Assembly (NCBI GenBank): GCA_003001795.1
Contig: PVNI01000004.1
Span: 62,001-126,000, forward strand
Origin: Actinomadura viridilutea
GTDB taxonomy: Bacteria; Actinomycetota; Actinomycetes; Streptosporangiales; Streptosporangiaceae
Reading direction: 5' to 3'
Length of the DNA: 64,000 nucleotides
Shown here: in pieces, positions 7,007 through 28,646 of the stretch
How the letters are laid out: every line of letters begins with the position of its first letter
How positions within the stretch are numbered: position 1 is the stretch's first letter
The notes under the pieces: model-generated
The model's database searches: none
What the model was told of the DNA's origin: nothing
Seen by the model: the letters and a program-made list of their open reading frames with translations, nothing else
Translations under genes and position numbers: made by a program

Positions 7007-7540
7007 GTGACCGTTCCTCGGACCGAACTGCTGCTGCGCCAGCTGGACACCGCCTGGGCGCTGTTCGAGTACCACCTGAAGGACCTCGACGACGCGGCAT
7101 GTCTGTGGGAGCCGGCGCCGCATTGCTGGACCGTCCGCCCGGACGAGCGGGGACGCTGGACCGCCGACTGGCAGGCGCCCGAGCCCGACCCGCTGCCCGC
7201 CGTCACGATCGGCTGGGTGACCTGGCACATCGGCTACTGGTGGACCACCGTCCTCGGGCACTGCTTCCGCGGCGGGGCGCCCGCGCGCGAGGAGATCGCC
7301 TGGCCCGGGTCCGCCGCCGCGGCGGCCGCGTGGCTGGGCGGGCTGAAGGACGCCTGGCGCGCGGAGCTGACCCGGCTCACCGACGCCGACCTGGACTCCG
7401 CCGAGCGCACGGCGGGGCTGCCGTGGGGCGGGGAGATGACGCTGGCGGACGTCGCGGGCTGGGTGACCGTCGAGCTGACCAAGAACGTCGCCGAGATCGG
7501 CCTGCTGCGCACCCTCTACGGCGCGCGAAACCGCACGTGA
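7007..7540 (+). CDS. DinB/YfiT-like metalloenzyme-fold protein
   Basis: The protein has 177 aa and a four-helix-bundle DinB fold. Recognisable elements are LLRQLDTAWALFEYHLKDL, the conserved GWVTWHIGYWW segment carrying a metal-ligand His, and VELTKNVAEIGLLRTLYGAR at the C-terminus. Known members are metal-dependent thiol (mycothiol or bacillithiol) transferases or uncharacterised. Mycothiol use would fit an actinobacterium, but nothing here proves it. GTG 7007 is chosen over a TTG at 6971 because the added residues are low-complexity. Confidence 0.75.
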   Translation: MTVPRTELLLRQLDTAWALFEYHLKDLDDAACLWEPAPHCWTVRPDERGRWTADWQAPEPDPLPAVTIGWVTWHIGYWWTTVLGHCFRGGAPAREEIAWPGSAAAAAAWLGGLKDAWRAELTRLTDADLDSAERTAGLPWGGEMTLADVAGWVTVELTKNVAEIGLLRTLYGARNRT

Positions 7541-7683
7541 GAGGGGTCGCCCACCGCTGACCGGCGGGGCACACCTGTCTGGCCCCTCCGGACGCCTTGT
7601 GTGACAGGGGGTTGAACCGGGCGGCACGGTTCTGTTCTGATCACAGTCACGGATGCGTCACGACGGACCGGGGAGGCGGACGG

Positions 7684-8868: not shown

Positions 8869-8886
8869 TCCCGTTCACCGGATGAT
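8855..8886. repeat. 17-bp-period duplication covering two convergent stop codons
   Basis: A 15-bp sequence (CGTTCACCGGATGAT) occurs at 8855-8869 and again at 8872-8886. The first copy contains the stop of the surface-protein gene and the second contains the complementary stop of the monooxygenase gene. The two genes therefore end 6 bp apart inside a tandem duplication. Confidence 0.85.
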
Positions 8887-10338
8887 GAGGTAGTCCTCCG
8901 GCTTGGCGCGGCGGGTCTGCGCCCAGAACTCGAAGGTGTGGCCGGGCCACAGGGTGCGGTTGACGCCGTTCTCGTCCAGGTACCAGCTCTGGCAGCCGCC
9001 CTCGCTCCACACCGCGCGGCGCAGGCGGCGCTGCATGCGGTCGTTGTACCGGCGCAGCGCCCCCGGCCGCGGCTCGAGGGCGTCGGCCCCGAGCCGCTGG
9101 AGCAGCCGCAGGCAGCTCAGCACGTGCTGGATCTGCACCTCGATCATGAAGACGACCGAGTTGTGGCCCAGACCGGTGTTGGGGCCCAGCAGGAAGAAGA
9201 AGTTCGGGAAGCCGGGAATGGTGGTGCCCCGGTACGCCTCGATGCCGTTCGCCCACGCCTCCTGGATCTTGAGGCCGCCGCGGCCCACCACGCGCTGCTC
9301 GGCCAGGGCGTCGGTCACCTTGAACCCGGTGCCGTAAATGATCGTGTCGACCTCGTGCTCGCGGCCGTCGGCGGTGACGATCGAGTGCTCGCGCACCTCG
9401 GCGATGCCGGCGGTCTCCAGCTCCACGTTGGGCCGCATGAGCGCCGGGTAGTAGTCGTTGGCCAGCAGCACCCGCTTGCAGCCGATGGTGTAGTCGGGGG
9501 TCAGCTTGGCGCGCAGCTCGGGGTCGGGGATCTGCCGCCGGAGGTGCCGCCGCGCCAGGCGCTCCTGGGGGCCGGACAGCCGCGGGTGGACGGTGAATCC
9601 GAGGGCGCGGGCCTCCAGCGCCCAGTAGATGGCGTAGCGGAACGCGCGGGCGGCGCCCGGGACCGTCTTGAACAGCGCGCGGACAGGCGCGGGGATGGTG
9701 AAGTCCGGCTTGGGCTGGATCCACGGCGGGGTGCGCTGGAACACCACGAGCCGTGCGGCCTTCTCGGCGACGCGAGGGACGAACTGGATGGCCGACGCGC
9801 CGGTGCCGATGACCGCGACGCGCTCGCCCCTCAGGTCGTGCGAGTGGTCCCATTCGGCGGAGTGGAACGCGGTGCCCTGGAACTTGTCGATGCCGGGCAG
9901 GTCGGGGTACTTGGGGATGTGCAGCGCGCCGATGGCGGACACGACCGCCCGCGGCCGCAGGACGGCGCCGTCGGCGGTGGTGACGTTCCAGCGCCGCGCC
10001 GCCTCGTCGTACTCCATCGCCTCCACCGCGACGCCGAAGCGGATGTGCCGCCTGACGTCGTACTTGTCGGCGGTGCGCTCCAGGTAGGCGCGGATCTCCG
10101 GCTGCGGCGCGAACATGCGCGACCAGCCGGGGTTGAGCTCGAAGGAGAACGAGTACATGTGCGACGGCACGTCGCAGGCGCAGCCGGGATAGGTGTTGTC
10201 ATGCCAGGTGCCGCCGAGCGCCCGGCTCTTCTCCAGCACCACGAAGTCGTGGAAGCCGTGCCGCTTCAGCTGGATCGCCATGCCGAGCCCGGCGAAGCCG
10301 GCGCCGACGATGACGATCGAGGGGTTCCGCTCTCGCAT
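8875..10338 (-). CDS. flavin-dependent Baeyer-Villiger-type monooxygenase
   Basis: The protein has 487 aa. It has an N-terminal FAD Rossmann motif (GAGFAGLG) followed by ALGGTWHDNTYPGCACDVPS. The Baeyer-Villiger fingerprint F-x-G-x3-H-x3-W-D is present as FQGTAFHSAEWD, and the NADPH motif as GTGASA. By family it inserts oxygen next to a ketone using FAD and NADPH, on steroid, terpenoid or cyclic ketones. GGGGAGGG sits 8 nt before ATG 10338; an upstream in-frame ATG at 10356 is less likely. It is divergent from a TetR gene with a large palindrome between them, so substrate-inducible TetR control is likely. Confidence 0.92.
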   Translation of the reverse strand: MRERNPSIVIVGAGFAGLGMAIQLKRHGFHDFVVLEKSRALGGTWHDNTYPGCACDVPSHMYSFSFELNPGWSRMFAPQPEIRAYLERTADKYDVRRHIRFGVAVEAMEYDEAARRWNVTTADGAVLRPRAVVSAIGALHIPKYPDLPGIDKFQGTAFHSAEWDHSHDLRGERVAVIGTGASAIQFVPRVAEKAARLVVFQRTPPWIQPKPDFTIPAPVRALFKTVPGAARAFRYAIYWALEARALGFTVHPRLSGPQERLARRHLRRQIPDPELRAKLTPDYTIGCKRVLLANDYYPALMRPNVELETAGIAEVREHSIVTADGREHEVDTIIYGTGFKVTDALAEQRVVGRGGLKIQEAWANGIEAYRGTTIPGFPNFFFLLGPNTGLGHNSVVFMIEVQIQHVLSCLRLLQRLGADALEPRPGALRRYNDRMQRRLRRAVWSEGGCQSWYLDENGVNRTLWPGHTFEFWAQTRRAKPEDYLIIR

Positions 10339-10356
10339 GCCGTTGTCCCTCCCCAT

Positions 10357-10403
10357 GACCTACTATGAGTAAGTTACTAGCGGTAGCTTACTGACGGTAG
10401 GTC
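10357..10403. promoter_or_regulatory. nested palindromic operator between monooxygenase and TetR genes
   Basis: Two concentric inverted repeats share a centre at base 10380. The outer arms are GACCTAC (10357-10363) and GTAGGTC (10397-10403). The inner arms are AGTAAGTTACT (10368-10378) and GGTAGCTTACT (10382-10392), matching at 9 of 11 positions. The location and symmetry fit binding of two TetR dimers that control both divergent genes. Confidence 0.8.
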
Positions 10404-10422
10404 TAATGAGTGGGATTCCGCT

Positions 10423-11088
10423 GTGAGCAGCGCCACGCCCGGCGGCGCCCCGGGTGACGCGTCGGGCCGGCCCCGGCGGCGCCGCATGTCGCGCGCGGAA
10501 CGCGAGCGGCAGATGCTGGACGTGGCCGAGCAGGTGTTCGGCGAGCGCGGCTACCGGGGAACGTCCATGGACGAGATCGCCGAACGCTGCGGCGTGTCCA
10601 AGCCGATGCTCTACGAGTACTTCGGCTCCAAGGACGGGCTGCTGCTCGCCTGCATCGGCCGGGCCAAGGCGGAGCTGCACGAGGTCACCGAGAAGGCGAT
10701 GGCCGGGGCGAGCACCCCCGACGACGTCCTGTGGCGCGGCATGCTCGCCTACTTCTCCTTCATCGACTCGCACAGCCGCCCGTTCGCGATGCTCCTGCAG
10801 GAGCCGCTGTCCGGGCCGCCGGAGACCGCCGAGGCGATCGAGGACACCCGCCGCCAGCAGAGCGAGCTGATCGCCGGGGTGCTCCGCGCGTTCGCCCCGG
10901 ACGCGCCCGACACGGCGGTCGCCGCGTACACCCAGATCATCGTCGGGGCCTGCGAGCGGCTGGCGCTGTGGCGCACCCGGCACCCGGAGCTCACCGCGCA
11001 GGACGCGGCCCGCCACATGACCGACTTCTGCCGGCACGGCCTGGCCCCGTATCTGAACGCATCGCACCGGCGGGCGCCCGCTGAGTAG
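10423..11088 (+). CDS. TetR-family regulator of the divergent monooxygenase (inferred)
   Basis: The protein has 221 aa with a basic N-terminus and a TetR helix-turn-helix at about residues 28-75 (MLDVAEQVFGERGYRGTSMD, IAERCGVSKPMLYEYFGSK). The C-terminal part resembles TetR_C-type ligand domains (MLLQEPLSGPP, IIVGACERLALW). It starts at GTG 10423, 20 bp after the nested palindrome, which it probably binds. By analogy a ketone or lipid substrate would release it and induce the monooxygenase. That effector is inferred only from the neighbour. Confidence 0.88.
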   Translation: MSSATPGGAPGDASGRPRRRRMSRAERERQMLDVAEQVFGERGYRGTSMDEIAERCGVSKPMLYEYFGSKDGLLLACIGRAKAELHEVTEKAMAGASTPDDVLWRGMLAYFSFIDSHSRPFAMLLQEPLSGPPETAEAIEDTRRQQSELIAGVLRAFAPDAPDTAVAAYTQIIVGACERLALWRTRHPELTAQDAARHMTDFCRHGLAPYLNASHRRAPAE

Positions 11089-12032: not shown

Positions 12033-12743
12033 TCAGGGCCGCGGGGCGGTCTTGAGCAGGTCGGCGGCCGAGCGTTCGACGACCGGGACGCCCGGGGGAT
12101 GGTCGAGCAGGGCCAGCGCCGCCGCGTACCCCTCGCCGGGGTCGAGGGTGCGCATGGCCATCCGGCCGGGCAGGTCGGGGCGGCCCGCCCACGCCACCAG
12201 GCGGGGCTCCTCGGCGGCCGGCGACACGGTGACGTCGGTCAGCGGCACGCGCAGCCCGTCGCCGGTGGCCTTGAGCACGGCCTCCTTGCGCGTCCAGTAC
12301 GCCAGCAGCTCGTCCCGCCCCATCCGCGGGCCCCCGGCGGACGCCTCGATCTCCGCGGGCCCCAGCACGTGCCCGACGATGTCGGCGCCCAGTGCGCGGT
12401 CGGCGGCCTCCACGTCGACGCCGAGCGGCCCGTGCGGGGACAGCGCCACCGCGACCCGGTCCCCGGAGTGCGACACCGACACGTGCGGGCCGCCCTCGAT
12501 CACCGGACGCCCGTGCGGCTGGCCGCAGTCCGCGCAGACCCGGGAGATCGGCACCCGCTCCGGCGGCAGTCCGCGCAGCGCGCCCACCGCGAGCCTGGTC
12601 ACGGCCACGCCGAGCGTGAACCGGTTCCGGTCCGCGTCCCGCAGGTAGCGCCCGTGCCGGGCCCGCTCCACGGGGTCGAACAGCGCCTCGTGCTCGGCGC
12701 CCGCCCACCCGGGCTCGGCCCACCACACGACAACCGGTTCCAC
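12033..12743 (-). CDS. Sfp-type 4'-phosphopantetheinyl transferase
   Basis: The protein has about 236 aa from GTG 12743 (GGAG at 5-nt spacing); the frame extends to 12779 (248 aa). PPTase motifs are HVSVSHSGDRVAVA, the Mg-binding GVDVE, and WTRKEAVLKATGDGL. It transfers phosphopantetheine from CoA to a serine on carrier proteins and would activate the carrier proteins of secondary pathways. The ACP at 41.3 kb in this window is a possible client, though the two genes are 29 kb apart. It is convergent with the SDR gene. Confidence 0.93.
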   Translation of the reverse strand: MEPVVVWWAEPGWAGAEHEALFDPVERARHGRYLRDADRNRFTLGVAVTRLAVGALRGLPPERVPISRVCADCGQPHGRPVIEGGPHVSVSHSGDRVAVALSPHGPLGVDVEAADRALGADIVGHVLGPAEIEASAGGPRMGRDELLAYWTRKEAVLKATGDGLRVPLTDVTVSPAAEEPRLVAWAGRPDLPGRMAMRTLDPGEGYAAALALLDHPPGVPVVERSAADLLKTAPRP

Positions 12744-13938: not shown

Positions 13939-14167
13939 TCTCCCGCTCCTCACTCCCGGCCGACCGCGGCGCGCCCCCGCGCCGCGCGGTCCGGGCTTGC
14001 ACCACCCCTTACGCCTGGCAAGGTAGTCAGCCCGACGAGGTGCTGACCAGGGTCCCCGCGAGGGCGTTTTGTCAGACCCCGAGGTCACAATGGGTCCGTG
14101 CTCCACCGTCGCGGACTCCTCGGCCGGCGGGTGTCGGCTCCGCGCACGCGGGGATGGACCTGAGCCT

Positions 14168-16637: not shown

Positions 16638-17126
16638 ATGAGCCGTGTCGTGGACCGGTGCGACCCGCGGTCGCGGGCGTGGATCGCCGAGGCGATCAGG
16701 AAGGTGGAGGCGGACGCCGGGCGCAGCGCGGACACGCACCTGCACGCGTTCCCGCTGCCGCCCGAGTGGGGCGTCGACCTGTACCTCAAGGACGAGTCGG
16801 TGCATCCGACCGGCTCGCTCAAGCACCGGCTGGCCCGTTCGCTGTTCCTCTACGCGCTGGCCAACGGGTGGATCCGCGAGGGCACGACGATCATCGAGGC
16901 GTCCAGCGGGTCCACGGCGGTGAGCGAGGCGTACTTCGCGCGGCTGCTCGGCCTGCCGTTCGTCGCGGTGATGCCCGCGACGACCAGCCGGGAGAAGATC
17001 GAGCTGATCGAGTTCCACGGCGGCCGCTGCCATCTGGTGGACGATCCGAGGGCGATCTACGACGAGTCCCGGCGGCTGGCGCAGGAGTGCGGCGGGCACT
17101 TCATGGACCAGTTCACCTATGCCGAG
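16638..17126 (+). pseudogene. PLP-dependent cysteine-synthase-family enzyme, N-terminal half (split by element)
   Basis: The first 163 codons start at ATG 16638 with GGAGGG upstream. They carry the fold-type II PLP core: the Schiff-base Lys in [13 protein letters not shown], and the phosphate or substrate loop [13 protein letters not shown]. The frame is then cut by the integrated element at the GCCGAG core and continues as chimeric sequence to 17681. The second half is at 25918-26526 in the same frame, and joining the halves gives a 365-aa protein of normal family size. In the integrated state the enzyme should be inactive. The intact family makes or breaks bonds at C-beta of serine or cysteine derivatives. 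Confidence 0.92.
17121..17126. other. attL core GCCGAG
   Basis: Chromosomal coding sequence (...CAGTTCACCTAT) reads into GCCGAG and then into unrelated element sequence (TTCATGGTAGCG...). The same six bases, at the same codon phase, occur at 25912-25917 where the host gene resumes. The short identity fits a serine integrase rather than a tyrosine integrase, which normally uses longer cores in tRNA genes. Confidence 0.82.
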
Positions 17127-17183
17127 TTCATGGTAGCGCATCATGTCCGTGACGTGCGGAAACAACGTCCAGACATGCGAAGA

Positions 17184-17212
17184 CCCCCGGCCGCCGAGCT
17201 GGCGACCGGGGG
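17184..17212 (-). terminator. stem-loop at the left end of the element
   Basis: CCCCCGG (17184-17190) pairs with CCGGGGG (17206-17212), with GCC/GGC pairing inside the loop. It sits about 50 bp beyond the last minus-strand gene and stops transcription before attL. Confidence 0.6.
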
Positions 17213-17264
17213 CCAGCTCCCGCGAGCGTGCCGCGCCCTTGCTAGTGCTCGCGGGGGTCTCAGG

Positions 17265-17387
17265 TCAGAACGGCGCGCGGTGGCGGCCGACGTACCGGGG
17301 ACGGCGGGTGGCCAGCGCCAACGCGGCCCCACCCGTCAACAACCCGAACCCGATCACCGCGACCAGCGCCAGCGCGAGAGTCACCAT
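17265..17387 (-). CDS. 40-aa single-pass membrane peptide
   Basis: Forty residues: a hydrophobic helix ([20 protein letters not shown]) followed by a basic tail [15 protein letters not shown]. The start ATG 17387 overlaps the TGA of the upstream gene (ATGGTGA), and GGGAG is present at 7-nt spacing. Small membrane proteins like this occur in actinobacterial integrative elements (for example near spd genes), but no assignment is possible. Confidence 0.6.
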
Positions 17388-17674
17388 GCCCGGTCTCCCT
17401 CCCCGCGCAGGTACGCGCGCCGCCGCTCCACAGCCGCCACGTTGCCCGCCCGCATCGGCAGCCACGCCCACAGCGTGTCGAGCCTCTGTGTTTCGCGGAT
17501 GCACGCGTCGCGGTCCGGGCCGAACGCGTGCGGTTCGACACCGGCCGCCAGCTCCGACGGGGTAGGCGGGTGCTTCAGCCGCGCAACCCAGAAGTTGCCG
17601 TGCGGGTCGTACTCTGGGCCATCCCACCTCCGCGACGGGGCGTCAGTCGCGGGACCGGTACGCTTCATTTCCAT
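17381..17674 (-). CDS. hypothetical protein of the mobile element
   Basis: The protein has 97 aa and is hydrophilic ([50 protein letters not shown]). A perfect AGGAGG lies 7 nt before ATG 17674. It is divergent from the GntR gene across a repeat-containing promoter region and is coupled to the 40-aa membrane peptide. I do not recognise the family. Its position makes it the probable target of the GntR regulator. Confidence 0.7.
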
Positions 17675-17767
17675 GGGCTGACCTCCTCGGCAGGTCGGCT
17701 CAAGGCCCGCCTCGGTGTCGTGAGCATCGGGGCGGGCCGCCTTCATGTACACCCCCAGCGTCCCAAA

Positions 17768-17817
17768 GTTGTCCAGCCCAGTCCAGCGCAGTACAGAGAT
17801 ATCCAGGGTTGTCCAGC
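17768..17817. promoter_or_regulatory. repeated GTTGTCCAGC sites in the divergent promoter region
   Basis: GTTGTCCAGC occurs at 17768-17777 and 17808-17817, with a related CAGTCCAGC between them (about 17780). The sites lie upstream of the GntR gene and of the divergent 97-aa gene. Repeats of this kind in front of KorSA-like GntR genes are typical operators. Confidence 0.55.
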
Positions 17818-17846
17818 TATATCCGCAGGTCACTAGCGTTGTAGAC

Positions 17847-18080
17847 GTGCTCGACCTGGACGGCCCCACGCCGCTGTTTCAGCAGATCGCCGCGATCCTC
17901 CGCGCCCGCATCGCGGACGGGACGTACCCGGCGGACAAGCGCATGCCGTCGGCGCGGGCCATCGCGGAAGAGTTCGGAGTGACCCGAGGGACAGCTGTAG
18001 CCGCCCTGGACTTGTTGAAAGAAGAGGGTTTGATCTACGGAGTTCGCGGACGCGGCACCTTCCCCCGCGCCCGGGACTGA
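17847..18080 (+). CDS. short GntR-family regulator of the element
   Basis: The protein has 77 aa from GTG 17847 and consists of little more than the winged helix. It has PTPLFQQIAAILRARIADGTY, the recognition helix SARAIAEEFGVTRGTAVAAL, and the wing EEGLIYGVRGRGTF. There is no effector domain, as in KorSA-type repressors of actinobacterial integrative elements. A TTGTCC hexamer and a TAGCGT hexamer at about 18-nt spacing end just upstream, so the message may be leaderless. It probably represses the divergent gene pair and itself through the GTTGTCCAGC repeats. Confidence 0.85.
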   Translation: MLDLDGPTPLFQQIAAILRARIADGTYPADKRMPSARAIAEEFGVTRGTAVAALDLLKEEGLIYGVRGRGTFPRARD

Positions 18081-18146
18081 TCAGCGCTGAACAAACCGCG
18101 CACACAAGAAAAGCCCCCGCACCCATCAAGGGCACGGGGGCATGTC

Positions 18147-18791
18147 TCACTTCGACGGCGGCCGATAAACCGCCGCGATCTTCTGCTTCTTCGTGAGCCG
18201 TCGGCCGGACTCGATCCGCTCCACCGCGTCCAACACGTCCGCCATCTCATCCGCCTCCGCGTCGGACGCGGGCCGCCAGTTCCAAGCCTCAGAGGCGATC
18301 GCCTTCACGCGCGGGTCCTTCTTGGCCTCACGCACCGGGATACCCCACGACTTGCCCAGAGCGGACGCGAGCGCGTTCCGGAGCGCGGTACGGGCTCGGT
18401 TGCAGGCGAGACACTTTCGCCACCCGCGCGCCGCGCGGTCGGGCCGGTTGTTCTCCGGCGTTAGGGCGTGGCCACGCGGGCAATGCGTGCGGTTCGCCAT
18501 GGGGTGCGTCCCGTCCCGCGTCACCTGGAAGCGGCTGTTCTCCACGTGAGTCACCACTTGGAGGTGATCCGGTCGAACACAGTCGCGGCGGCCGCACATA
18601 TGGTCCACTTCCATCCCCGCCGGAATTTCGCCGTGCGTAGCGGCGTAGGCGACCCGGTGGGCGTACTGATGACGGCCGTCGAACCAGAACTTGCCGTACC
18701 CGTCCCGCGTCTTCGAGGCCGTCCACACGTGGCAACCGGTCTCCGGGTCGATGACAACCTTGCTCGTAAACCGCTCCGGCAGCGTAAACAA
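18147..18791 (-). CDS. HNH endonuclease
   Basis: The protein has 214 aa. The N-terminal part (GCHVWTASKTRDGYGKFWF, then AHRVAYAATHGEIP) and the HNH core VDHMCGRRDCVRPDHLQVV plus THVENSRF match phage-type HNH_3 nucleases. Zn-binding Cys pairs follow (HCPRGH, CLACNRARTA). The C-terminal extension is basic and helical. It starts at TTG 18791 with AAGGGA upstream. In HK97-like phages and their satellites an HNH nuclease next to the terminase genes assists cos cleavage. Here the TerS-like gene is about 530 bp upstream on the same strand, supporting that role. Confidence 0.9.
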   Translation of the reverse strand: MFTLPERFTSKVVIDPETGCHVWTASKTRDGYGKFWFDGRHQYAHRVAYAATHGEIPAGMEVDHMCGRRDCVRPDHLQVVTHVENSRFQVTRDGTHPMANRTHCPRGHALTPENNRPDRAARGWRKCLACNRARTALRNALASALGKSWGIPVREAKKDPRVKAIASEAWNWRPASDAEADEMADVLDAVERIESGRRLTKKQKIAAVYRPPSK

Positions 18792-18808
18792 TGCGATCCC
18801 TTTCTAGT

Positions 18809-19015
18809 GTCAACATGTAAACCCGCCCCCGACCGCCCCGGTTTCCACTCGCGGCCGCAGACTGGACACCCGGCGACGGCGGAGGCGACAGTGTGACATT
18901 TCAAACGTCAACGGGGACGACACACGCGGCAATAGCGGTTACACGCGTCAACCCGCCCCCGCCGCCGACGTCAACACCACGCGGCCGGATGTCACGCGGG
19001 GGCGTCAACGTCAAC
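18809..19015. repeat. cluster of six GTCAAC motifs (iteron-like)
   Basis: GTCAAC occurs at 18809, 18907, 18947, 18970, 19004 and 19010, all in the same orientation, within about 210 bp of non-coding sequence. One further GTCAC lies at 18991. The cluster separates the TerS/93-aa gene pair from the HNH gene. It could be a regulator array, iterons, or a terminase-binding (cos/pac) site. Confidence 0.65.
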
Positions 19016-19045
19016 ACATCTGAACACGCACTCAGACAACAACTC

Positions 19046-19327
19046 TCACATGCGCAAACGTTTTATCGCGGGGGCGTAGTTCGGGAACCACGAGTATCCG
19101 TCGCCAGTAGTGACAAGCGACATGCAAACCCGTATCACGTCCGCGTCGTCCTCGTCCGGAAACTCGTAGCCGTACGCCGCCGCGAACTTGTCACGCGCAC
19201 GAAACCAGTCGCGCCATGTGTCGACAGTCCCCGGAGTGATTGACGCGTCAGGCGACAACGGAAACTCCACCAGATTACGCGGCGGTGACGGTGTCACGTC
19301 CACCCGCACCGACCGTTTCCGCCTCAT
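19046..19327 (-). CDS. hypothetical protein downstream of the TerS-like gene
   Basis: The protein has 93 aa (ITPGTVDTWRDWFRARDKFAA, then EFPDEDDADVIRVCMSL). ATG 19327 overlaps the TerS stop (ATGA), so it is translationally coupled. I do not recognise the family. Coupling to TerS suggests a packaging or head-related role, but that is positional inference. Confidence 0.7.
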   Translation of the reverse strand: MRRKRSVRVDVTPSPPRNLVEFPLSPDASITPGTVDTWRDWFRARDKFAAAYGYEFPDEDDADVIRVCMSLVTTGDGYSWFPNYAPAIKRLRM

Positions 19328-19731
19328 CGGGTTCCCCAGCGGGCATGTGCGGCAACCCGCCCGGCTTCGCTTCGCGTCAGCTTGCGGTACTTCTTCGCCT
19401 CTTCCAGCCGCGTCACCTCGGCTTCCGCGTCATCGTCCGGGATGCGAAGGGTGCGGAGGTACGTCGTTAGGGCGGTCCGGTACAGGCGGAGTTCCACTAG
19501 AAGCGGGTGTTGGACCGGCTGACGCTGGGAGCCAAGAACCGTAAGTGGCTGGCCCTCCAGTTCCGCCTCCATTGCTGCGATCAAGTCGAGCGTCCGGCAC
19601 GCGGCGGAGAGGACCTGGAGCTCGTCAGGTCGGAGGTCGAATTCTTCTGTGATGTCGTTCCATAGCTTTGTACCGCGTGGGCCAAGTTTTTCAAGTGCCG
19701 GAACCGGCTTCCGGTCGTCTTCCGTTGCCAT
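19324..19731 (-). CDS. phage terminase small-subunit-like protein
   Basis: The protein has 135 aa. Features resemble P27-type small terminases of actinophages: LGPRGTKLWNDITEEFDLRP, an acidic helix ELQVLSAACRTLDLIAAMEA, QHPLLVELRLYRTALTTYL, and a basic C-terminal SEAGRVAAHARWG. It has a perfect AAGGAGGTGACC before ATG 19731. By family TerS recognises the genome's cos or pac site and feeds DNA to TerL. No TerL frame exists in the element. A TerS without its own TerL is a hallmark of phage satellites that redirect helper packaging. Confidence 0.68.
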   Translation of the reverse strand: MATEDDRKPVPALEKLGPRGTKLWNDITEEFDLRPDELQVLSAACRTLDLIAAMEAELEGQPLTVLGSQRQPVQHPLLVELRLYRTALTTYLRTLRIPDDDAEAEVTRLEEAKKYRKLTRSEAGRVAAHARWGTR

Positions 19732-20152
19732 GGTCACCTCCTTCCGAAATGCACAAGATCACAATTCTCGGTCGAGAACGTGCTCACCGGCGCGGATTCC
19801 AAATCAGGGACTAGATACGTCGCATCCGACCGCTCCTGCTAACCCCCGCCGTTCAGGAAACCCTTTGAGGGGAGTCCCCCCCACCCCCTGTCACCGCGTC
19901 GTCACAACACGCATGTTCTTGCAGTTCACGCGCGTTGCCCACGCTCGGCATCTCGCGGCACACAGCCCGGCCGGGGCGGGATGGGCAACCAACCGGCCGC
20001 ACCCACACCCGCCCCTGTACGGCCCTCAGCGCCACGCTGACGGCCGTTCGCGTGCCACCAGCACCCAAACCTTAGTGCAGCCCTTACAAGGCTCAGAGAC
20101 GCTCTCAGCGCTTCTGGTGAGGCTGGGGGGTGTTCAACCACGGGGGACTAGC
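19732..20152. other. intergenic region inside the element
   Basis: About 420 bp without a credible gene. It contains a 14-bp dyad TTCTCG-GT-CGAGAA (19765-19778) just upstream of the TerS gene and C/G-rich hairpins near 19860-19885. A minus-strand frame near 20020-20130 reads EPCKGCTKVWVLVARERPSA, like a small zinc-ribbon remnant, but has no start codon. Confidence 0.5.
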
Positions 20153-20326
20153 TCAATCGAAGGCAGTCCCCTCGTATTCCCCTGGGCCCGCGTACTTGCG
20201 GCGGGTGATCCGGTTGACAATCTGCTCCAACATCTCGTCGTACCCCATGACGGGCACCGGATCATTACCGGTGTGCAGATTGCCCAAGTCAGGTACGCGG
20301 TTGTTGTCGTCGTTGTCGTCCGCCAT
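20153..20326 (-). CDS. 57-aa acidic hypothetical protein
   Basis: The frame from ATG 20326 to TGA 20153 encodes an Asp/Asn-rich N-terminus (MADDNDDNNRVPDLG) and a helical C-terminal half (YDEMLEQIVNRITRRKYAG). It is the last gene of the capsid-proximal block. No family is recognised. It is too short for automatic ORF calls, but it keeps the spacing and strand of its neighbours. Confidence 0.55.
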   Translation of the reverse strand: MADDNDDNNRVPDLGNLHTGNDPVPVMGYDEMLEQIVNRITRRKYAGPGEYEGTAFD

Positions 20327-20386
20327 TAGAACCCCATCCCGTAGATCCTCCGCCGCGTCCTATTCGCGGCCGGTCGGTTTATCTCG

Positions 20387-20461
20387 TCAAAACGCCCAGA
20401 CCGCCGTCAGAACCAACCCGACGACGTGCATTGTCATGAAGACAGGTACCGAAATGTTCAT
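20387..20461 (-). CDS. 24-aa membrane peptide (possible)
   Basis: ATG 20461 overlaps the stop of the preceding gene (ATGA). The frame encodes MNISVPVFMTMHVVGLVLTA plus VWAF, one hydrophobic helix. Translational coupling is the only support. It could be a real small membrane peptide or chance. Confidence 0.35.
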   Translation of the reverse strand: MNISVPVFMTMHVVGLVLTAVWAF

Positions 20462-20694
20462 ACCCCCCACTCCCACGGGCTGTAGTCCGTCACAGATTCC
20501 CGCGTCTGATGGTCCATGTCGAACACGAACGCGTTCCGGGAACGGAACGGAATCCCATCCACCAACAGGCACCACCCCCTCCAGTCGCGATACGCGCGGA
20601 GGGTCGGCACGAGTTGTTCCGCCCGCTCGGCCGCGAAGTCTTCACGAAGGACCGCCGAAGGAACGCGGCGGGATCGCAAGTCCGGCCCAAGCAT
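20458..20694 (-). CDS. hypothetical protein of the capsid block
   Basis: The protein has 78 aa (VLREDFAAERAEQLVPTLRA, then WCLLVDGIPFRSRNAFVFDM). The start ATG 20694 overlaps the stop of the gene before it (TGATG). The beta-rich middle and position after the capsid gene suggest a head-completion or decoration-type protein, but no homology is recognised. Confidence 0.6.
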   Translation of the reverse strand: MLGPDLRSRRVPSAVLREDFAAERAEQLVPTLRAYRDWRGWCLLVDGIPFRSRNAFVFDMDHQTRESVTDYSPWEWGV

Positions 20695-20891
20695 CAGGCC
20701 GCCGCCAGATTCGCGACAGACGATACACGCGGTACCCGGAACTCGTGGACGCCGGAAGGGCGGCCTTCCGCGTCTTCCACTGCCACCACCTGTACCCTCC
20801 AATATGCGTGTAGGCCGGTCTTGCCCCCGGATATCGCGGTGTGTGCGGGGGTCCATTCCGCCGCCTCTAGGCGCTCATCCAAGATATGCAT
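20694..20891 (-). CDS. hypothetical protein after the capsid gene
   Basis: The protein has 65 aa from ATG 20891 with GAAGGGA upstream (MHILDERLEAAEWTPAHTAI, then HAYWRVQVVAVEDAEGR). It is coupled to the next gene by a TGATG overlap. Its family is not recognised. An in-frame ATG at 20918 is less likely because it lies inside the preceding stem-loop. Confidence 0.6.
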   Translation of the reverse strand: MHILDERLEAAEWTPAHTAISGGKTGLHAYWRVQVVAVEDAEGRPSGVHEFRVPRVSSVANLAAA

Positions 20892-20918
20892 GGTTCCCTT
20901 CCCAGGCTGATAAAGCAC

Positions 20919-20953
20919 AACCGCTCACGAGCGGCGAGCGCCCATGAGCGGTT
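20919..20953 (-). terminator. stem-loop between the capsid gene and downstream small genes
   Basis: AACCGCTCA (20919-20927) and TGAGCGGTT (20945-20953) form a perfect 9-bp stem. It lies 27 bp after the capsid stop. It may act as a partial terminator or mRNA stabiliser that keeps capsid expression above that of the small genes. Confidence 0.6.
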
Positions 20954-20980
20954 GGCCTATGTCCTACCCTGGGTCAGCCG

Positions 20981-21841
20981 TCAGGCCGACTTCACGACCC
21001 GCACAACACGGTTCCCGTCCAGCAGTGACGCACCAGCGAACACAGAGACGAGGCTCTGCTCAGTGGCGGTGGATGGGTTGTACTGCCGGACCACGCGAAG
21101 CGCGTACCCATCCCGCGTAACCACGGCCGAGTCCGCGCCGCTCGCGGGAAGCGGAGCAAAACTCGCCATGGCAAACGCGGACTGGTGGTACGCGACCATG
21201 GAATCGGCGGCAAGCTGGTTCGCCTTCACGAGCGTGAACCCGGCAAGCTGGCCAATTACCGCAGATCGGAAAGCGCTCGGTGAACCACTGGCAGACGCAT
21301 CCAGAACCGCCGGGTGCCCGATCAGCGCCCGCGCCACCTGAGGCGACACAGCGACGAACCGGCCGCCCTCGGGCACATTTTGGATGTCCAGGGTCATGCC
21401 CGCGTCCAGGATGGCGCTAAGCCAGGCGTCCGCGTCCGGAGCGGTCAGCGTCACATCAGCCGCCAGGTCATTCATCGCGTCCGCGACGTACTGATCCATC
21501 CGCGCAGCCACGCTGTCCACCTGCGGTTCCAAGATCTGTGCACCGAAGTCCGCCAAACCGAGCGTAAGATCATGCTCGGTTAGGTTGGCCAGGTCATACA
21601 CGTGGTTCACCACCACGTCAACCAGCGTTTCAGCCACGTCGACCGCCGTCAGTGCCGCCCCCGGCGTGGCCTGGACATTCGCGGTGCGGGTGTTTCGGAT
21701 CCGAACCGACACCGTCCCGCCGGTTCCGGAGTAATTCCGCTGGGCCACTCGAAGAACGGTGGGCGCGAGCACCACCGTGCGGGACAGTAGCGGCACAGCG
21801 AGATCGGCAATAGCCGTGGCAGTTGCAATCGAGTTCGCCAT
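20981..21841 (-). CDS. phage major capsid protein, P22 coat-like family
   Basis: The protein has 286 aa from ATG 21841 (AAGGTGAG upstream). The pattern of actinobacterial P22-type coat proteins is visible. It has an N-terminal helical arm (SIATATAIADLAVPLLSRTV), RVAQRNYSGTGGTVSVRI, and the DVVVNHVYDLANLTEHDLTL segment. Then come an E-loop/spine region QILEPQVDSVAARMDQYV and a late beta domain (AGFTLVKANQLAADSMVAY). By family it self-assembles into an icosahedral head on the HK97 fold. It is the first gene of a minus-strand block whose promoter should lie in 21850-22150. No scaffold, protease or portal gene is next to it, which is unusual. Confidence 0.75.
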   Translation of the reverse strand: MANSIATATAIADLAVPLLSRTVVLAPTVLRVAQRNYSGTGGTVSVRIRNTRTANVQATPGAALTAVDVAETLVDVVVNHVYDLANLTEHDLTLGLADFGAQILEPQVDSVAARMDQYVADAMNDLAADVTLTAPDADAWLSAILDAGMTLDIQNVPEGGRFVAVSPQVARALIGHPAVLDASASGSPSAFRSAVIGQLAGFTLVKANQLAADSMVAYHQSAFAMASFAPLPASGADSAVVTRDGYALRVVRQYNPSTATEQSLVSVFAGASLLDGNRVVRVVKSA

Positions 21842-22292
21842 AATGGCCACTCACCTTTCACATCACGTATCGACCATGGGCAAGTTCCCCCGTTTCGGGT
21901 GAGTGGTGAGCCTGCCGTTTCGGCGCTCAATAGAAACCCGCCGTCCGGCCTGTAGCGTTCCGCCGTAGGCCGGGGCGGGTGCGGTTCTCACCCGGCCGGT
22001 TAGCCGGGTGTGAACCCGAATTCGCGGTGGTGGTGGGGAGCCGCGCCCGTTTCGGGTCGGCGGTCGGACTTCCGCCACGCACGCCGCGCGGCGAACGCCC
22101 AACAGGTCCCCCCTGGACCCCCTTGAACACAAAAAACCCCCGCCCCCGGCCGCCGCCCTCCATGTATGGCCCCATGGAAGACGACCCCCGGGGACGGGGG
22201 TAAAAACACCGCTTTAGGACTCGCGGCTAGTCGCACACCATCCGCTGCGGTGGGCCATCACCGCTTGCGGAGGGGAAGTCTGAAGATGGGCG

Positions 22293-22340
22293 GGGGTGTG
22301 GCGTCCCGTGGCGCGCCTGATCCACACTGCGCCACACCCC
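22293..22340. repeat. 11-bp perfect inverted repeat
   Basis: GGGGTGTGGCG (22293-22303) and CGCCACACCCC (22330-22340) are exact complements with a 26-nt spacer. The dyad lies at the capsid-gene side of the control region and could be a terminator or operator for the capsid transcript. Confidence 0.7.
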
Positions 22341-22621
22341 AACATGCGGTGACGCGCAGGTGGACACGCCACCTTGGGAACCGCCCGCAGGAAAGAGAAG
22401 ACACCCTGTCACCACGTTGGCGCGGCCCGCCGAATTCGTCCGCGCGAACCGCCCATGTTCCCGGCTCCCGATCGCCCGGGGGCTCGCCCCCGAAGACACA
22501 TCGGAAACCCTCACTATAGTTACGGCTCCCGATCGGCCGGGTGTCAGCACAAGTTTCGCGGGGATCCGGCCGCCCCCGCCCCCTCTGCCGTCTCGTCACC
22601 CGTGAGGCTTGGTCACAGTAG

Positions 22622-22732
22622 GGCTGACCTGCGAAGGTGACGGAGGTGACGAGGTGACGAGAATCTGAAGTTCACTATAAAGAAACAAGAGTGAACCTCG
22701 GGTCGACGTCATCACGTCACCCTCGTCACCCC
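22622..22732. repeat. 110-bp direct repeat, copy 1
   Basis: Starts GGCTGACCTGCGAAGGTGAC and ends CGTCACCCC. It contains three GGTGACG units on the left, two inverse CGTCAC units on the right, and a central 10-bp stem (one mismatch here) around an AT-rich ATAAAGAAACAAG loop. It differs from copy 2 at about three positions, including a 1-bp indel. Confidence 0.92.
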
Positions 22733-22763
22733 CTGGCGGGGCGCGGGATGGTCCGCCGGGCCG

Positions 22764-22789
22764 CTCCGTCACCGCTCCGCCGCTCCGAG
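22764..22789. repeat. 26-bp direct repeat, copy 1
   Basis: A 26-bp sequence beginning CTCCGTCACCGC and ending CGCTCCGAG is repeated exactly at 22952-22977. The two copies flank the central 105-bp dyad. Confidence 0.9.
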
Positions 22790-22805
22790 CTGGGCACTCT
22801 CAGGA

Positions 22806-22910
22806 TGTCCCCGATTAAGAAGATGGTGTCAGGGTAACTTTAAATCTAATCCCTATACATAAGCACTTAAACCAAACCGACCCTGACACCACCCCCTTTT
22901 ATCGGGGACA
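22806..22910. repeat. 105-bp nested dyad with AT-rich centre (candidate origin or packaging core)
   Basis: Outer arms TGTCCCCGAT (22806-22815) and ATCGGGGACA (22901-22910) and inner arms GGTGTCAGGGT (22825-22835) and ACCCTGACACC (22880-22890) are all perfect. They enclose a 44-nt centre rich in TTTAAAT, TATACATAA and TTAAACC, in an otherwise GC-rich region. The dyad sits midway between the 26-bp repeats and the 110-bp repeats. Confidence 0.88.
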
Positions 22911-22951
22911 TACGGGAGTGGAGCGGCCGGACGCGGGAAGACCCCGGGCCC

Positions 22952-22977
22952 CTCCGTCACCGCTCCGCCGCTCCGAG
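22952..22977. repeat. 26-bp direct repeat, copy 2
   Basis: Exact second copy of the 22764-22789 sequence, on the other side of the central dyad. Confidence 0.9.
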
Positions 22978-22981
22978 GTCC

Positions 22982-23091
22982 GGCTGACCTGCGAAGGTGA
23001 CGAGGTGACGAGGTGACGAGAATCTGAGGTTCACTATAAAGAAACAAGAGTGAACCTCGGGTCGACGTCATCACGTCACCTTCGTCACCCC
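22982..23091. repeat. 110-bp direct repeat, copy 2
   Basis: Near-identical to 22622-22732, with a 360-bp period. Its central stem is perfect: GAGGTTCACT (23026-23035) and AGTGAACCTC (23049-23058) around a 13-nt AT-rich loop. Confidence 0.92.
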
Positions 23092-23190
23092 TAGGCCGGA
23101 GCGGCGGGGGCGGTCCGGCTTCCCCGCGTCCCCTGCGCCGCCCGCGCCTGACGCGGCCCGGCCCGGCCGCACCTTGAAGGCCACTGGCCG

Positions 23191-23310
23191 GGGTGCAGTT
23201 TGCGCACCCAGGGTGCAAATTCAACACCCGATCCCGAAACCTTCGTATCTAATTAGAAGAGGTTTGGGAACCAGGTGAATTTTTGCACCCCGGGTGCGAT
23301 TCTCGCACCC
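23191..23310. repeat. GGGTGC / GCACCC array around an AT-rich dyad
   Basis: GGGTGC lies at 23191, 23211 and 23292 and its complement GCACCC at 23204, 23285 and 23305. The whole block is roughly symmetrical. At its centre AAACC/GGTTT arms flank CTTCGTATCTAATTAGAAG. The pattern suggests repeated binding of one protein next to an easily melted segment. Confidence 0.8.
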
Positions 23311-23774
23311 CGCCCGGCGGCCCTTCTCCGCGAACCGGCCGGGGGCGGCAGCGGTACGGGGACCGGGACGCCTGCCAGCCCCGCGACCACGCACCGTGAC
23401 TGTCTCCGGATCCGGGGCACCCCGCTTGACCTGCGCAAACCCTTCGCCGGCCAGTGCGGAGCGTGACGATCACCGGGGGTAGGGGGTTGGGACGCGGGGA
23501 AGCCGCCGGACCTCCCGCGAACCGGCCGCGACCGCTCGTGCCCTCCCGCGCCCCTCCCGCGCCCTTCAGCGGCCCCGTGCGCGGCCTTCCGGGGTCGCAG
23601 GGGGACAGAGCACGGGCAGGGCGGCTAGGGCGGCTCTGGGGCGGCTCTGGGGCCGTTCCCGGCATGCCCGCGAACCGGTCCGCGTGCCTCCGCCCCCACG
23701 CGGCACGCGGGCGGGAGCCCCTGGTTACCCGGGGCGGGTCCGCCAAACGTTTAGCGGAGGGGGTGGTGTGAGTT

Positions 23775-23850
23775 CGCAAATCATTTGCGCGTTCCCATTC
23801 TTGTGCAGCGCTGCACAGAAATTGCGTTTCGTGGGAAGGTCGGTTACTGT
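23775..23850 (+). promoter_or_regulatory. two palindromes and promoter before the 78-aa gene
   Basis: CGCAAAT-C-ATTTGCG (23775-23789) and the perfect 16-bp palindrome TGTGCAGCGCTGCACA (23802-23817) precede a -35 TTGCGT (23822-23827) and a -10 TACTGT (23845-23850) at 17-bp spacing. The arrangement fits a repressible promoter for the gene at 23889. Confidence 0.6.
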
Positions 23851-23888
23851 TCCGCCGTGAAACGCAGTCGACCGGATTGGAGACCGTC

Positions 23889-24125
23889 ATGGACGCCACC
23901 CCGATGACCGACGCTGAGATCATCGATTCGCTGTTCTTCCAGATCACCGACTGGGCGGCTGATCTGGTTCACCGTGGCCTGATCTCGGAGGCCGAAGCGA
24001 ACGCGGTGGAGTTGACCGCGCTGGCCACGATCCGGCAGGACATGTCGCTTCTGGAGCCGGGGGCGGCGGCCGTGCTGGAGGCGGAGCGGCTCACGCGGTT
24101 CGCGGCAGGCCCCGAGACGCGCTGA
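23889..24125 (+). CDS. 78-aa hypothetical protein of the element
   Basis: ATG 23889 has GGAG at 6-nt spacing. The product is an acidic, all-helical protein (DAEIIDSLFFQITDWAADLV, ISEAEANAVELTALATIRQD). It is one of only two plus-strand genes in the element, with its own promoter, palindromic sites and terminator, so it is independently controlled. It could be a replication, excision or immunity factor. No family is recognised. Confidence 0.7.
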   Translation: MDATPMTDAEIIDSLFFQITDWAADLVHRGLISEAEANAVELTALATIRQDMSLLEPGAAAVLEAERLTRFAAGPETR

Positions 24126-24143
24126 GACGCCCCAGAAACGACG

Positions 24144-24181
24144 AAAGCCCCGGGACCCTACGCGGGTATCCCGGGGCTTTT
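24144..24181. terminator. bidirectional intrinsic terminator
   Basis: AAAGCCCCGGGA (24144-24155) pairs perfectly with TCCCGGGGCTTT (24169-24180), with flanking A and T runs on both sides. It lies between the convergent 78-aa gene and the integrase gene and serves both. Confidence 0.9.
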
Positions 24182-24212
24182 CGTGTGCCGCCTGCGGACT
24201 TCTGAGCGCGTT

Positions 24213-25745
24213 CTACGCGGGTTCCCACACGAACCGCACGTATACGCGCCGGGTGTCTAGTCGGTTCGCGCCGCGTCCGGCCTTTATGACGCGAACCTCC
24301 GCGACCACCGTCGCCAAGATCTTCTTCAGCATTTCGGGTGTCTGGTCCCGCCACGCGGCTAGAACTTCCGGCCCGCTCCACCACCCGGCCCATTCGGGGA
24401 GTACGAGGGTTGTGCTCCCGGTGAGCTCGTCCAGCCGGGCACGTGCGGCCGCGAGCGTCTCCCGAGCGGCCTTCAAATCGCGTTCCAGGCCCGGTTCGTC
24501 GTCGTCGTAAACGCCCCACCGTGCATTTCGCTGCACGCGCTTGAGCACCTTCTCGGCGTCGCGCACGGCCATTTCTGCGTTTGTGATCGCGGCAGTGTCT
24601 TCGGGTGGGCGCATGGTCGCGGCCCACACGCTCGCGAGAGTCGCCAAATGATCCCGATCCTCCGGGTCATCTGGGTCCAACGCCGCGACCGCATTCGAAG
24701 CACGCCACAAAACGTACTCGTCGAGCGCGTTCATTTGGGCCGTAGCCGGGGCGGGACACGGGCGGCCCTTTGAGTGCCGCGAGCACCGGTAGCCCGTCCC
24801 GCCGCTGCTCATGGGCCCTCCGCACCCATCGCACACCAACCGGCCCGTCAGAAGCGCGGCCTTTCCCGTGGAGATGAACGCGCGGGACCGGGCGGCCCGG
24901 TTCGCGGCGTGCCACAGTTCGGCCGGGATGAGTTGCTCGCCCGGTGCCACGCACAGCACGGGACTTCCCGCGTCGTCCAACACGGACACCGTGCGCGGCC
25001 CTTCCCGGCGGGTTTGATGCCCCATGTAGGCCGGGTTGTTGATAATTGTTGCGATCGTGCGGGAGGTCCATTGCCCGCCGCGCGGCGCAGGGATCCCCTC
25101 AGCGTTGAGCGCGGCCGCAACACGCCGCGCACCCAGCCCCTCCACCGTCGCAGTGAAAACCCGCTCGACGACGTCCCAGTTGTCCCCGCGCATCAGGCGG
25201 CGTGTTTCGGTGTCGTCGAGCTTCATGCCGTACGGAGCTTTACCGACGAATCCGCCCGCCAGACGGGTACGCGTTTTAGCGGCTCGAATCCGCTTGGCGA
25301 GCTTATCCGAATAGCGGCGCGCCTCGATCAGCAGTTTGTCCAGCTCGTTCGCGGCCGTCTCAGGGTCTCTGTACCGGGCGGAGTCGTAATCGTCGAGAAG
25401 CCCGATGACACGTAGTTGGCCGCGCGCGATACGCCGCTTCAGCTCCTCCGCGAACGGTGTATAGCCGCCTTGCCGTGACATTCTGTCGATCGCGTGCAGG
25501 TACAGCACGCGGGGCGCGTCGGGGGCATCTAGGGCCGCCAATGCCGCATCCCACCCCTCCCGAGTGGTTGGGGTCCAGGCCGACGCATTGTCGGTGAATT
25601 CCGCCGCGATCTCGACGCCGTACGCTTCTGCCTCGTCGCGGAGTTCGCGGAGCTGATCGGCTATGGAGATCTCCCGCCGCCCCTGCCGGGCCTGGCGGGT
25701 GTGGGACTTGCGGGCGTAGACGATCGCGGGCTCGCAGCGGCTCAC
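24213..25745 (-). CDS. large serine recombinase (integrase)
   Basis: The protein has 510 aa from GTG 25745 (GGAGG upstream). The resolvase domain begins AIVYARKSHTRQ with catalytic Ser14 in YARKS, and continues with LYLHAIDRMSRQGGYTPF and RIARGQLRVIGL. The recombinase domain has PYGMKLDD and GGQWTSRTIATIINNPAYMG. A zinc ribbon (LVCDGCGG, then YRCSRHSKGRPC) and a coiled coil (AEMAVRDAEKVLKRVQRNAR) follow. By family it performs unidirectional attP x attB recombination. It is read toward the element interior from immediately inside attR. Its start overlaps the 39-aa zinc-ribbon gene (GTGA). Confidence 0.95.
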   Translation of the reverse strand: MSRCEPAIVYARKSHTRQARQGRREISIADQLRELRDEAEAYGVEIAAEFTDNASAWTPTTREGWDAALAALDAPDAPRVLYLHAIDRMSRQGGYTPFAEELKRRIARGQLRVIGLLDDYDSARYRDPETAANELDKLLIEARRYSDKLAKRIRAAKTRTRLAGGFVGKAPYGMKLDDTETRRLMRGDNWDVVERVFTATVEGLGARRVAAALNAEGIPAPRGGQWTSRTIATIINNPAYMGHQTRREGPRTVSVLDDAGSPVLCVAPGEQLIPAELWHAANRAARSRAFISTGKAALLTGRLVCDGCGGPMSSGGTGYRCSRHSKGRPCPAPATAQMNALDEYVLWRASNAVAALDPDDPEDRDHLATLASVWAATMRPPEDTAAITNAEMAVRDAEKVLKRVQRNARWGVYDDDEPGLERDLKAARETLAAARARLDELTGSTTLVLPEWAGWWSGPEVLAAWRDQTPEMLKKILATVVAEVRVIKAGRGANRLDTRRVYVRFVWEPA

Positions 25746-25861
25746 GCGTCCTCCAAAACGCAGAACGGGCACGGGGCGGACGGGTCGCGGTAGGTCCACC
25801 TGCCGCACCGGTCACAGAGGATCGCGCCGAGCCGACGCAGTAGGGACACCAGGTCGGTCAT
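25742..25861 (-). CDS. 39-aa zinc-ribbon protein coupled to the integrase
   Basis: ATG 25861 (GGAAGGA upstream) to TGA 25742. The product has two CxxC pairs (ILCDRCGRW and APCPFCVLE) with a short helical N-terminus MTDLVSLLRRLG, so it is a minimal zinc ribbon. The stop overlaps the integrase GTG, giving coupled translation. It lies about 50 bp from attR, in the place where many integrase loci keep an accessory factor. A role as a recombination directionality or DNA-bending factor is possible but unproven. Confidence 0.78.
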   Translation of the reverse strand: MTDLVSLLRRLGAILCDRCGRWTYRDPSAPCPFCVLEDA

Positions 25862-25911
25862 GGGCCTGTCCTTCCAGGTAGCGAGGTTTGGCTACTGCTT
25901 ACTCTGCATAC

Positions 25912-25917
25912 GCCGAG
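25912..25917. other. attR core GCCGAG
   Basis: Element sequence (...TACTCTGCATAC) reads into GCCGAG, after which the host gene continues (CGCGCCACCGACTGG). The codon phase is identical to attL. The rebuilt attB reads ...ACCTAT-GCCGAG-CGCGCC..., inside a conserved Tyr-Ala-Glu stretch. Confidence 0.82.
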
Positions 25918-27887: not shown

Positions 27888-28380
27888 CGTCGCATCCCTC
27901 CGTGATCTCCAGCAACCCGCTCAGGGTACGTCATGGGCAACGCATCCGACCGCGTACAAATGCACTTGAGCCAGTCCCTAATTCCCTTCGAACCCGTCCT
28001 CATTGCGGCGCGAACCGCCGCCGACAGCGGCGCCCGGCAAGTCGAAGCCTGCGTTCAGGCCGTACGCGGGACGCGACCGAAGCGTTCGGCGCGCCGCCGT
28101 GGCTCCGTCCGCGCGAATGCGGGGGGCGCACTGCTTCGCCTCGCGGCCCCGAGGCGGCCGCCGCCGCAGGGTCGGCCTCCTCCTGCCCGCCCCGCACGCT
28201 TTCACGGCGGGCACCCGGCGGCCGACAGGCCGGGCGACTGCCCCGGCCCTGCTCCCACGCTGGACGGCGCCGTCTCGGAGCCGTCTCGGCCGTCCGGCGC
28301 CAGGCGGCCGCGGCCTGCGGCACCGCTTCGGGTCTCCGCGAAAGGCGAGGCCGCTGCTACTCTGACCCTGCGCCGCTGAT
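27888..28380. other. intergenic leader region before the glycine riboswitch
   Basis: About 490 bp between the divergent protease and glycine-operon genes. No coding frame is credible. A TACTCT hexamer at 28358-28363, 18 bp before the riboswitch, is the best -10 candidate for the glycine operon. Confidence 0.5.
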
Positions 28381-28568
28381 CCCGCGCGGGAGAGCGCCCT
28401 CGCAGCCGGCGGGGGCCGCCGAAGGAGCAAACCCTCCCCGGAACCTCTCAGGCCCCAGGACCGCGCGGACCAGGCGCCCTCTGGAAAGAGGGGACGCTCC
28501 CAGGTCCCCCGCCGAAGGTGAAAACCCCGCGAGGGGTGAAGCTCTCAGGCGCCGATGACAGAGGGGGA
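28381..28568 (+). promoter_or_regulatory. tandem glycine riboswitch
   Basis: Two aptamers in series show the conserved core strings. The first has GCGGGAGAGC, GCCGAAGGAGCAA and CCTCTCAGGC. The second has CTCTGGAAAGAGG, GCCGAAGGTGAAAACC, AGCTCTCAGGCGCCGATGAC and AGAGGGGG. By family glycine binding turns on expression of glycine-cleavage genes. It lies 79 bp upstream of gcvT, so the whole gcvT-gcvH-glyA-sdaA operon should be glycine-induced. Confidence 0.96.
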
Positions 28569-28646
28569 GGCACCGACCACGCCGGTGCGCCGGTGGGACG
28601 ATGATGATGCGTCCCGACGCGCGCCCCGCGATGAAGGAGCCGACCC

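Follow-up and report, generated by a model that had tools for sequence, protein, structure and literature searches.

The repeat block at 22622-23310 of the window (the whole 64,000-nt stretch of Actinomadura viridilutea DNA analysed here) most probably consists of four replication origins in tandem, each dependent on an initiator. The origins would belong to an integrated phage satellite and be served in trans by an initiator of the D5 type, whose source appears to be phiC31-type helper phages or sister elements with the same hairpin type. This reading draws on the architecture of the block, its conservation, its link with D5 genes and the lack of such genes in the host genome. A preliminary description of this DNA had proposed either a replication origin without a recognised initiator or a TerS-binding site. 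The former proposal gains support, as the same dyads are present in phages and sister elements that encode a D5/SF3 candidate initiator, often adjoining its gene.

The order and symmetry of the repeats were borne out with small corrections (Table 1). The supposed 110-bp repeat indeed exists as two direct copies, 360 bp apart, but its real length is about 118 bp. Likewise, the flanking pair described as 26-bp repeats is present, but each copy measures 34 bp and the two are 97% identical. The GGTGACG units facing CGTCAC units around an AT-rich stem-loop occur in each ~118-bp repeat, and both the nested central dyad with its 44-nt AT-rich core and the GGGTGC/GCACCC array around a second AT-rich dyad were found. 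Overall, the block consists of four dyads, in each of which two sets of short boxes enclose an AT-rich core. The box types are GGTGACG (twice), TGTCCCC/TGTCAGGG and GGGTGC. In dyad B, the outer arms of 14 nt match at 93%, and the loop (22836-22879) contains AATCCCTATACATAAG.

Table 1 Features of the block, of the integrated element and of dyads in other D5 actinophages. Window coordinates unless a phage is named; ends of the whole element are approximate
Feature	Position	Strand	Details
Dyad A1	22622-22740	+	CTGACCTGC flank, three GGTGACG boxes, stem-loop with AT-rich core, two inverted CGTCAC boxes
34-bp direct repeat, copy 1	22756-22789	+	one inverted GGTGACG box
Dyad B (central)	22805-22911	.	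outer arms ATGTCCCCGATTAA/TTTATCGGGGACAT, inner arms TGTCAGGGT/ACCCTGACA
34-bp direct repeat, copy 2	22944-22977	+	one inverted GGTGACG box
Dyad A2	22982-23099	+	second copy of A1 (98 bp at 95% plus 21 bp identical)
Dyad C	23190-23312	.	GGGTGC/GCACCC boxes, AT-rich core; inner box pair spans 94 bp (23204-23297)
Integrated satellite-like element, ~8.8 kb	17121-25917	.	short GCCGAG core at both ends
GntR-type regulator	17745-18080	+	PF00392 3e-15
HNH endonuclease	18147-18791	-	PF13392; phrog_826
93-aa ORF between TerS and HNH	19046-19327	-	
TerS (small terminase subunit)	19324-19737	-	phrog_1496 2e-19
Major capsid protein (MCP), P22 coat family, 289 aa	20981-21850	-	PF11651 4e-16; phrog_283
82-aa ORF	23877-24125	+	43-bp motif upstream
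Large serine integrase, 531 aa	24213-25808	-	Pfam Recombinase, Resolvase, Zn_ribbon; phrog_95
VroomVroom dyads	21.4 and 37.7 kb		box ATGTCGA
QMacho dyads	20.4 and 35.5 kb		box GGGCAAGTAGGGCG
Honk dyad	39.9 kb		box GGACGATGGGGACG

The repeats are real and far above chance. GGTGACG/CGTCACC boxes number 13 within 22500-23400, and elsewhere in the window no 900-bp stretch has more than 3. Inverted 9-mer pairs in the block amount to 46, versus 1.8 ± 1.8 in shuffles. Folded as single-stranded DNA, the four dyads gave z values of -5.4, -9.5, -7.1 and -7.6, and none of 200 dinucleotide shuffles folded equally well. The block is intergenic, with the capsid gene on one side and the 82-aa ORF on the other. 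Two more strong inverted repeats, possibly terminators, lie between the capsid gene and the block (22136-22201 and 22293-22340).

The element that carries the block has a 6-bp GCCGAG core at both ends by direct comparison. Its insertion splits a PALP (PLP-dependent enzyme) gene at residues 159-164, and the gene is uninterrupted in sister genomes of the same genus (7 genomes, 82-88% identity). The reading frames of the integrase, MCP, TerS and HNH endonuclease are intact. Pfam and phrog searches identified no primase or other replication initiator, no portal and no large terminase among the genes of the 8.8-kb element. Neither a D5_N gene nor a resident helper was found anywhere in the host genome (G000). 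Upstream of the 82-aa ORF, a 43-bp motif (CGCAAATCATTTGCG...TTCTTGTGCAGCGCTGCACA, 23774-23816) has the look of an operator pair and is 81% identical to positions 12219-12260 of the sister element L301. Outside the element, tandem glycine riboswitch aptamers (28377-28571; 61 and 50 bits) precede glycine-cleavage genes at 28647 and 29788.

Comparison of the whole block with INPHARED and PLSDB by blastn gave no match. Against 300 genomes of the host's family, the 721-bp block gave mostly GC-rich chance matches; a weak match in G280 (68-72%) is a true relative, namely L301, and look-alike matches in G205 and G283 were rejected as located inside a coding gene. Related-locus searches returned no matches for the capsid protein or the 82-aa ORF. 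For dyad B, none of the searches gave a homologue, and the exact central dyad is absent from IMG/VR. A fuller GGGTGC pattern gave scattered matches.

L057, an element in another genus, was reached through the capsid protein; it has a serine integrase and a capsid protein of 33% identity. Between its integrase and capsid genes lies a 94-bp dyad, GGTGACGAAGTGACG...CGTCACTTCGTCACC. A GTGACG dyad pattern built from the window and L057 dyads was found in 25 stretches of IMG/VR, phiBT1 among them, as well as in several Streptomyces, Kitasatospora and Actinacidiphila genomes. Among the 300 family genomes the pattern matched the window and L057 only, and a backwards control pattern matched none. The dyad is present in phiC31 (two), phiBT1 (two), IMG/VR phages and the elements L057, L250, L251 and L254, and alignment places dyad A1 in the same conserved family. 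In phiC31, one intergenic dyad (21655-21772) lies between the repressor gene and gene 1, before an early exonuclease gene, and the other (about 40.45 kb) between integrase and tRNA. The phiBT1 dyads are at 20482-20572 and 40711-40801. The records of both phages carry no annotation for these dyads.

Within this family the boxes are nearly invariant and the outer-box span is near-constant at about 92 bp. The inner arms vary in sequence and pair best with their own partner, as 0 of 10000 permutations reached the observed mean. This permutation test was used for the inner arms instead of RNAalifold, which on a MAFFT alignment recovers the conserved outer boxes only because the inner arms are misaligned. 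An inward CTGACCTG-type motif stands beside 12 of 41 dyads (background 0.46%, p = 2e-18), among them the two copies of the window and the two of phiBT1. Many GTDB matches in MAGs of proteobacteria, Acidobacteria and Planctomycetes were left out, as they look like dispersed tandem GTGACG repeats. Single MAGs hold such GTGACG/CGTCAC arrays on many contigs, unlike the phage dyads; examples are Steroidobacter TY_HY_2_bin.4 (L131, L136, L141, L142, L150 and others) and Betaproteobacteria NC_groundwater_328 (L130, L132, L164, L176 and others).

The dyads associate with genes for D5 (SF3) primase-helicases. D5_N was found in 17 of the 21 virus records with a GTGACG dyad versus 0 of 27 controls (Fisher p = 1e-9), where related phages are not independent and the controls, picked by unrelated DNA patterns, are unmatched in phage group. 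The control contigs came from scans for GGGTGC half-dyads and 13-nt-loop hairpins and are without D5. Three of the four dyad records without D5_N are fragments of 6-20 kb, and the fourth is 53 kb long. The serine integrase was considered as the common factor of the dyad records and set aside as the weaker one (8/21). In phiBT1, the D5 protein is gp9a, with Toprim, D5_N and Pox_D5 domains.

Dyads built in the same way, but with other boxes, occur in further D5 actinophages (Table 1). Hence, the box is phage-specific, as binding sites of an initiator would be. The dyad scanner revealed no clear dyad in the D5 phages Attoomi and AbbeyMikolon; its background is 5-6 such dyads per Mb in control viral loci, and it found none in shuffled window sequence. 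In the host's family, at least five inverted 9-mers within 400 bp downstream were counted for 12/20 D5 genes versus 60/422 other genes (p = 6e-6). With a threshold of at least ten, the counts were 9/20 and 13/422 (p = 4e-8). These inverted boxes 3' of the family D5 genes are element-specific. A box array is absent downstream of the D5 genes of G021, G213, G247 and G265, and in G223 and G280 the boxes are visible by eye, yet under the 9-mer threshold. After the D5 gene of L296 (G266), downstream of position 4109, there is a dense GGGGTACTG/CAGTACCCC array with 44 inverted 9-mer pairs within 400 bp.

The sister element L301 from the same genus (genome G280) has genes for a serine integrase, GntR and D5 (the last at 8942-10705). 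Its GGGTGC dyad, which matches window 23135-23311 at 68-72% identity (E 1.5e-6), adjoins the D5 gene at its 3' end; a GTGACG dyad is located between the D5 and integrase genes. The window element therefore shares both dyad types with L301, but lacks the D5 gene. Elements of about 9 kb akin to that of the window are L057, L250 (Streptomyces; integrase, capsid, TerS), L251 (Actinacidiphila; interrupting a tadA-type gene) and L254 (Streptomyces; interrupting an EF-Tu-type gene; capsid, scaffold-like and tape-measure proteins, HNH). The D5-less build recurs across several genera and at different insertion sites, and these elements keep their integrase genes and dyads intact. Of the 12 host genomes with a dyad, 6 are without any D5 gene and 3 more have D5 on other contigs. 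Besides its capsid protein, L254 encodes a 573-aa tail tape-measure protein (7293-9014), which is unusual at ~9 kb. Absence of the block from related functional elements, which the preliminary description had regarded as speaking against its proposal, was looked at, and relatives do carry the block, which speaks in favour of the proposal.

From the sequence data we infer initiator binding, core melting, replication and the nature of the helper as follows. The satellite would be excised by its own serine integrase. A D5-type SF3 primase-helicase from an infecting or induced helper phage, or from a sister element, would then bind the boxes and melt the AT-rich core, so that the hairpin-forming core serves as melting and priming site. 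The helper's replisome would be loaded at the opened core. In the genomes of the presumed helper phages themselves, this dyad occurs twice. As no mapped phiC31 replication origin was found in the literature searched, the phage dyads are candidate origins too.

That a satellite lacking an initiator combines several types of box suggests a panel for different helpers. In L250, the cores of the three dyads are similar (CCCTATAG type), and the boxes are of three kinds, GTGACGA, ATGTAGGT and ATGACGA. The ATGTAGGT box also occurs in two tandem dyads upstream of an exonuclease gene in the D5 prophage L264 (G242, the window's genus). GTGACG corresponds to phiC31-type phages and L301, GGGTGC to the D5 element L301, and ATGTAGGT of L250 to the G242 prophage. 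Tentatively, and with somewhat more doubt than belief, we propose as a general statement that satellites lacking an initiator gene hold a set of origins, every one suited to the D5 protein of another helper or sister element, so that several partners could copy one satellite. The tandem dyads of L264 start at 14017 and 14241, are near-identical, lie 224 bp apart directly before the Cas4-like exonuclease gene and have ATGTAGGTTTGA boxes.

Other explanations of the block were weighed against the origin reading. The element may once have encoded D5 itself, and the loss of that gene would have left the origins as non-functional leftovers. The close sister L301 has D5 beside its GGGTGC dyad, D5 is absent throughout G000, and some other dyad loci look degenerate, such as L157 with just an integrase and a dyad. 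Against this, the intact D5-less elements listed above recur, the window element keeps its four reading frames intact, and A1 and A2 retain 95% identity and full symmetry; we regard a relic as unlikely. The array could instead act as a decoy that titrates the helper's initiator and slows helper replication, with replication of the satellite being secondary. The surplus copies and the variety of boxes would fit this role, and interference with helpers is common among satellites. However, the dyads are preserved in full, with their AT-rich cores and co-varying inner arms, which exceeds what binding boxes alone require, so that a decoy as the main role seems improbable, although it is compatible with the origin role and could be additional to it.

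Two further explanations are both very improbable. A packaging site, pac or cos, to which TerS of the element would bind and at which the HNH endonuclease would cut, would fit the presence of both genes in the element, and terminase sites can be symmetric arrays. This was the TerS-binding site of the preliminary description, and it is not supported. The dyad occurs twice in phiC31 and phiBT1, mid-genome before an early exonuclease gene and in the gap between integrase and tRNA (phiC31 21.7 and 40.4 kb), away from the genome ends. L301 has both dyad types and D5, and neither a capsid gene nor TerS was recognised among its ORFs examined. Moreover, the dyads associate with D5 genes. The remaining explanation is a regulatory hub, i.e., operators for GntR or a phage transcription factor controlling the integrase, 82-aa ORF and capsid genes. 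The block is intergenic, the element has a GntR gene, and the separate shared motif upstream of the 82-aa ORF resembles an operator. Nevertheless, the dyads stand beside different genes in phages and satellites, yet track D5, and large co-varying hairpins with AT-rich cores are unusual for operators.

If the origin reading holds, the dyads offer a testable candidate replication origin for phiC31 and its relatives, and a possible copying route for a capsid-encoding satellite without any replication gene. They also point to a general rule, namely that in actinobacterial phages and satellites D5 genes are accompanied by stem-loop origins, with boxes that differ from element to element. Should the panel be true as well, the helper range of a satellite would be readable from its origin sequences. 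A single origin of the dyad type is a known kind; the multi-box tandem array in an initiator-less satellite and the phiC31 candidate origins are new as far as we searched the literature, with the 1999 phiC31 genome paper lying outside that search.

Among known systems, phage P4 is a satellite with ori and crr, repeated boxes and its own alpha protein, a D5/SF3 primase-helicase; its crr is a pair of ~110-120-bp direct repeats. The window element resembles P4 as a satellite with repeated boxes and a direct-repeat pair similar to crr. It differs in that no alpha-type primase-helicase is encoded, the box sequence is another one, and each repeat is itself a dyad.

In PICI/SaPI origins (PMC6092414), the origin lies directly 3' of the element's own initiator gene. 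Dyads directly 3' of a primase-helicase gene are likewise found in L301, G084, G102, G208 and others, whereas the window element is without a pri-rep gene. Further differences are its four tandem dyads, three box types and hairpin-forming inner arms, and a GTGACG type that is common to phiC31-type phages. Replication of plasmid pRN1, which has a primase-SF3 helicase, requires a ~100-bp stem-loop (PMC4234260). Alike are the ~100-bp stem-loop near a primase-SF3 helicase gene and a structure more conserved than its sequence; in contrast, the phage relatives here have a bacterial Toprim-type primase, and the window has clear repeated outer-arm boxes while its initiator is missing. As expected for an SF3 (D5) stem-loop origin, a D5 gene co-occurs with or adjoins the dyads in relatives, i.e., in the virus records against their controls, in L301 and at the family D5 loci. 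Because the window dyads match the descriptions of PICI-type and pRN1 origins, we read the block as four origins that would be fired by D5.

The Streptomyces phage satellites Mulch and Flayer have capsid genes and no primase. They possess genes for TerL, portal and scaffold as well as DTRs, use virulent BE-cluster helpers, and no origin was seen described for them in the passages considered (PMC10690885). The window element is similar as an actinobacterial element with its own capsid gene and no primase, and differs by having MCP, TerS and HNH only, plus a serine integrase; a homologous module of TerL, portal and scaffold with DTR ends was not recognised in its 8.8 kb. From the cf-PICI set of MCP, portal, protease, TerS, TerL and HNH, just MCP, TerS and HNH were recognised. 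Also comparable are the intergenic dyads of phiC31 and phiBT1, which share the boxes, the span and the CTGACCTG flank with the window, but are single copies at two distant sites, whereas the window has tandem copies.
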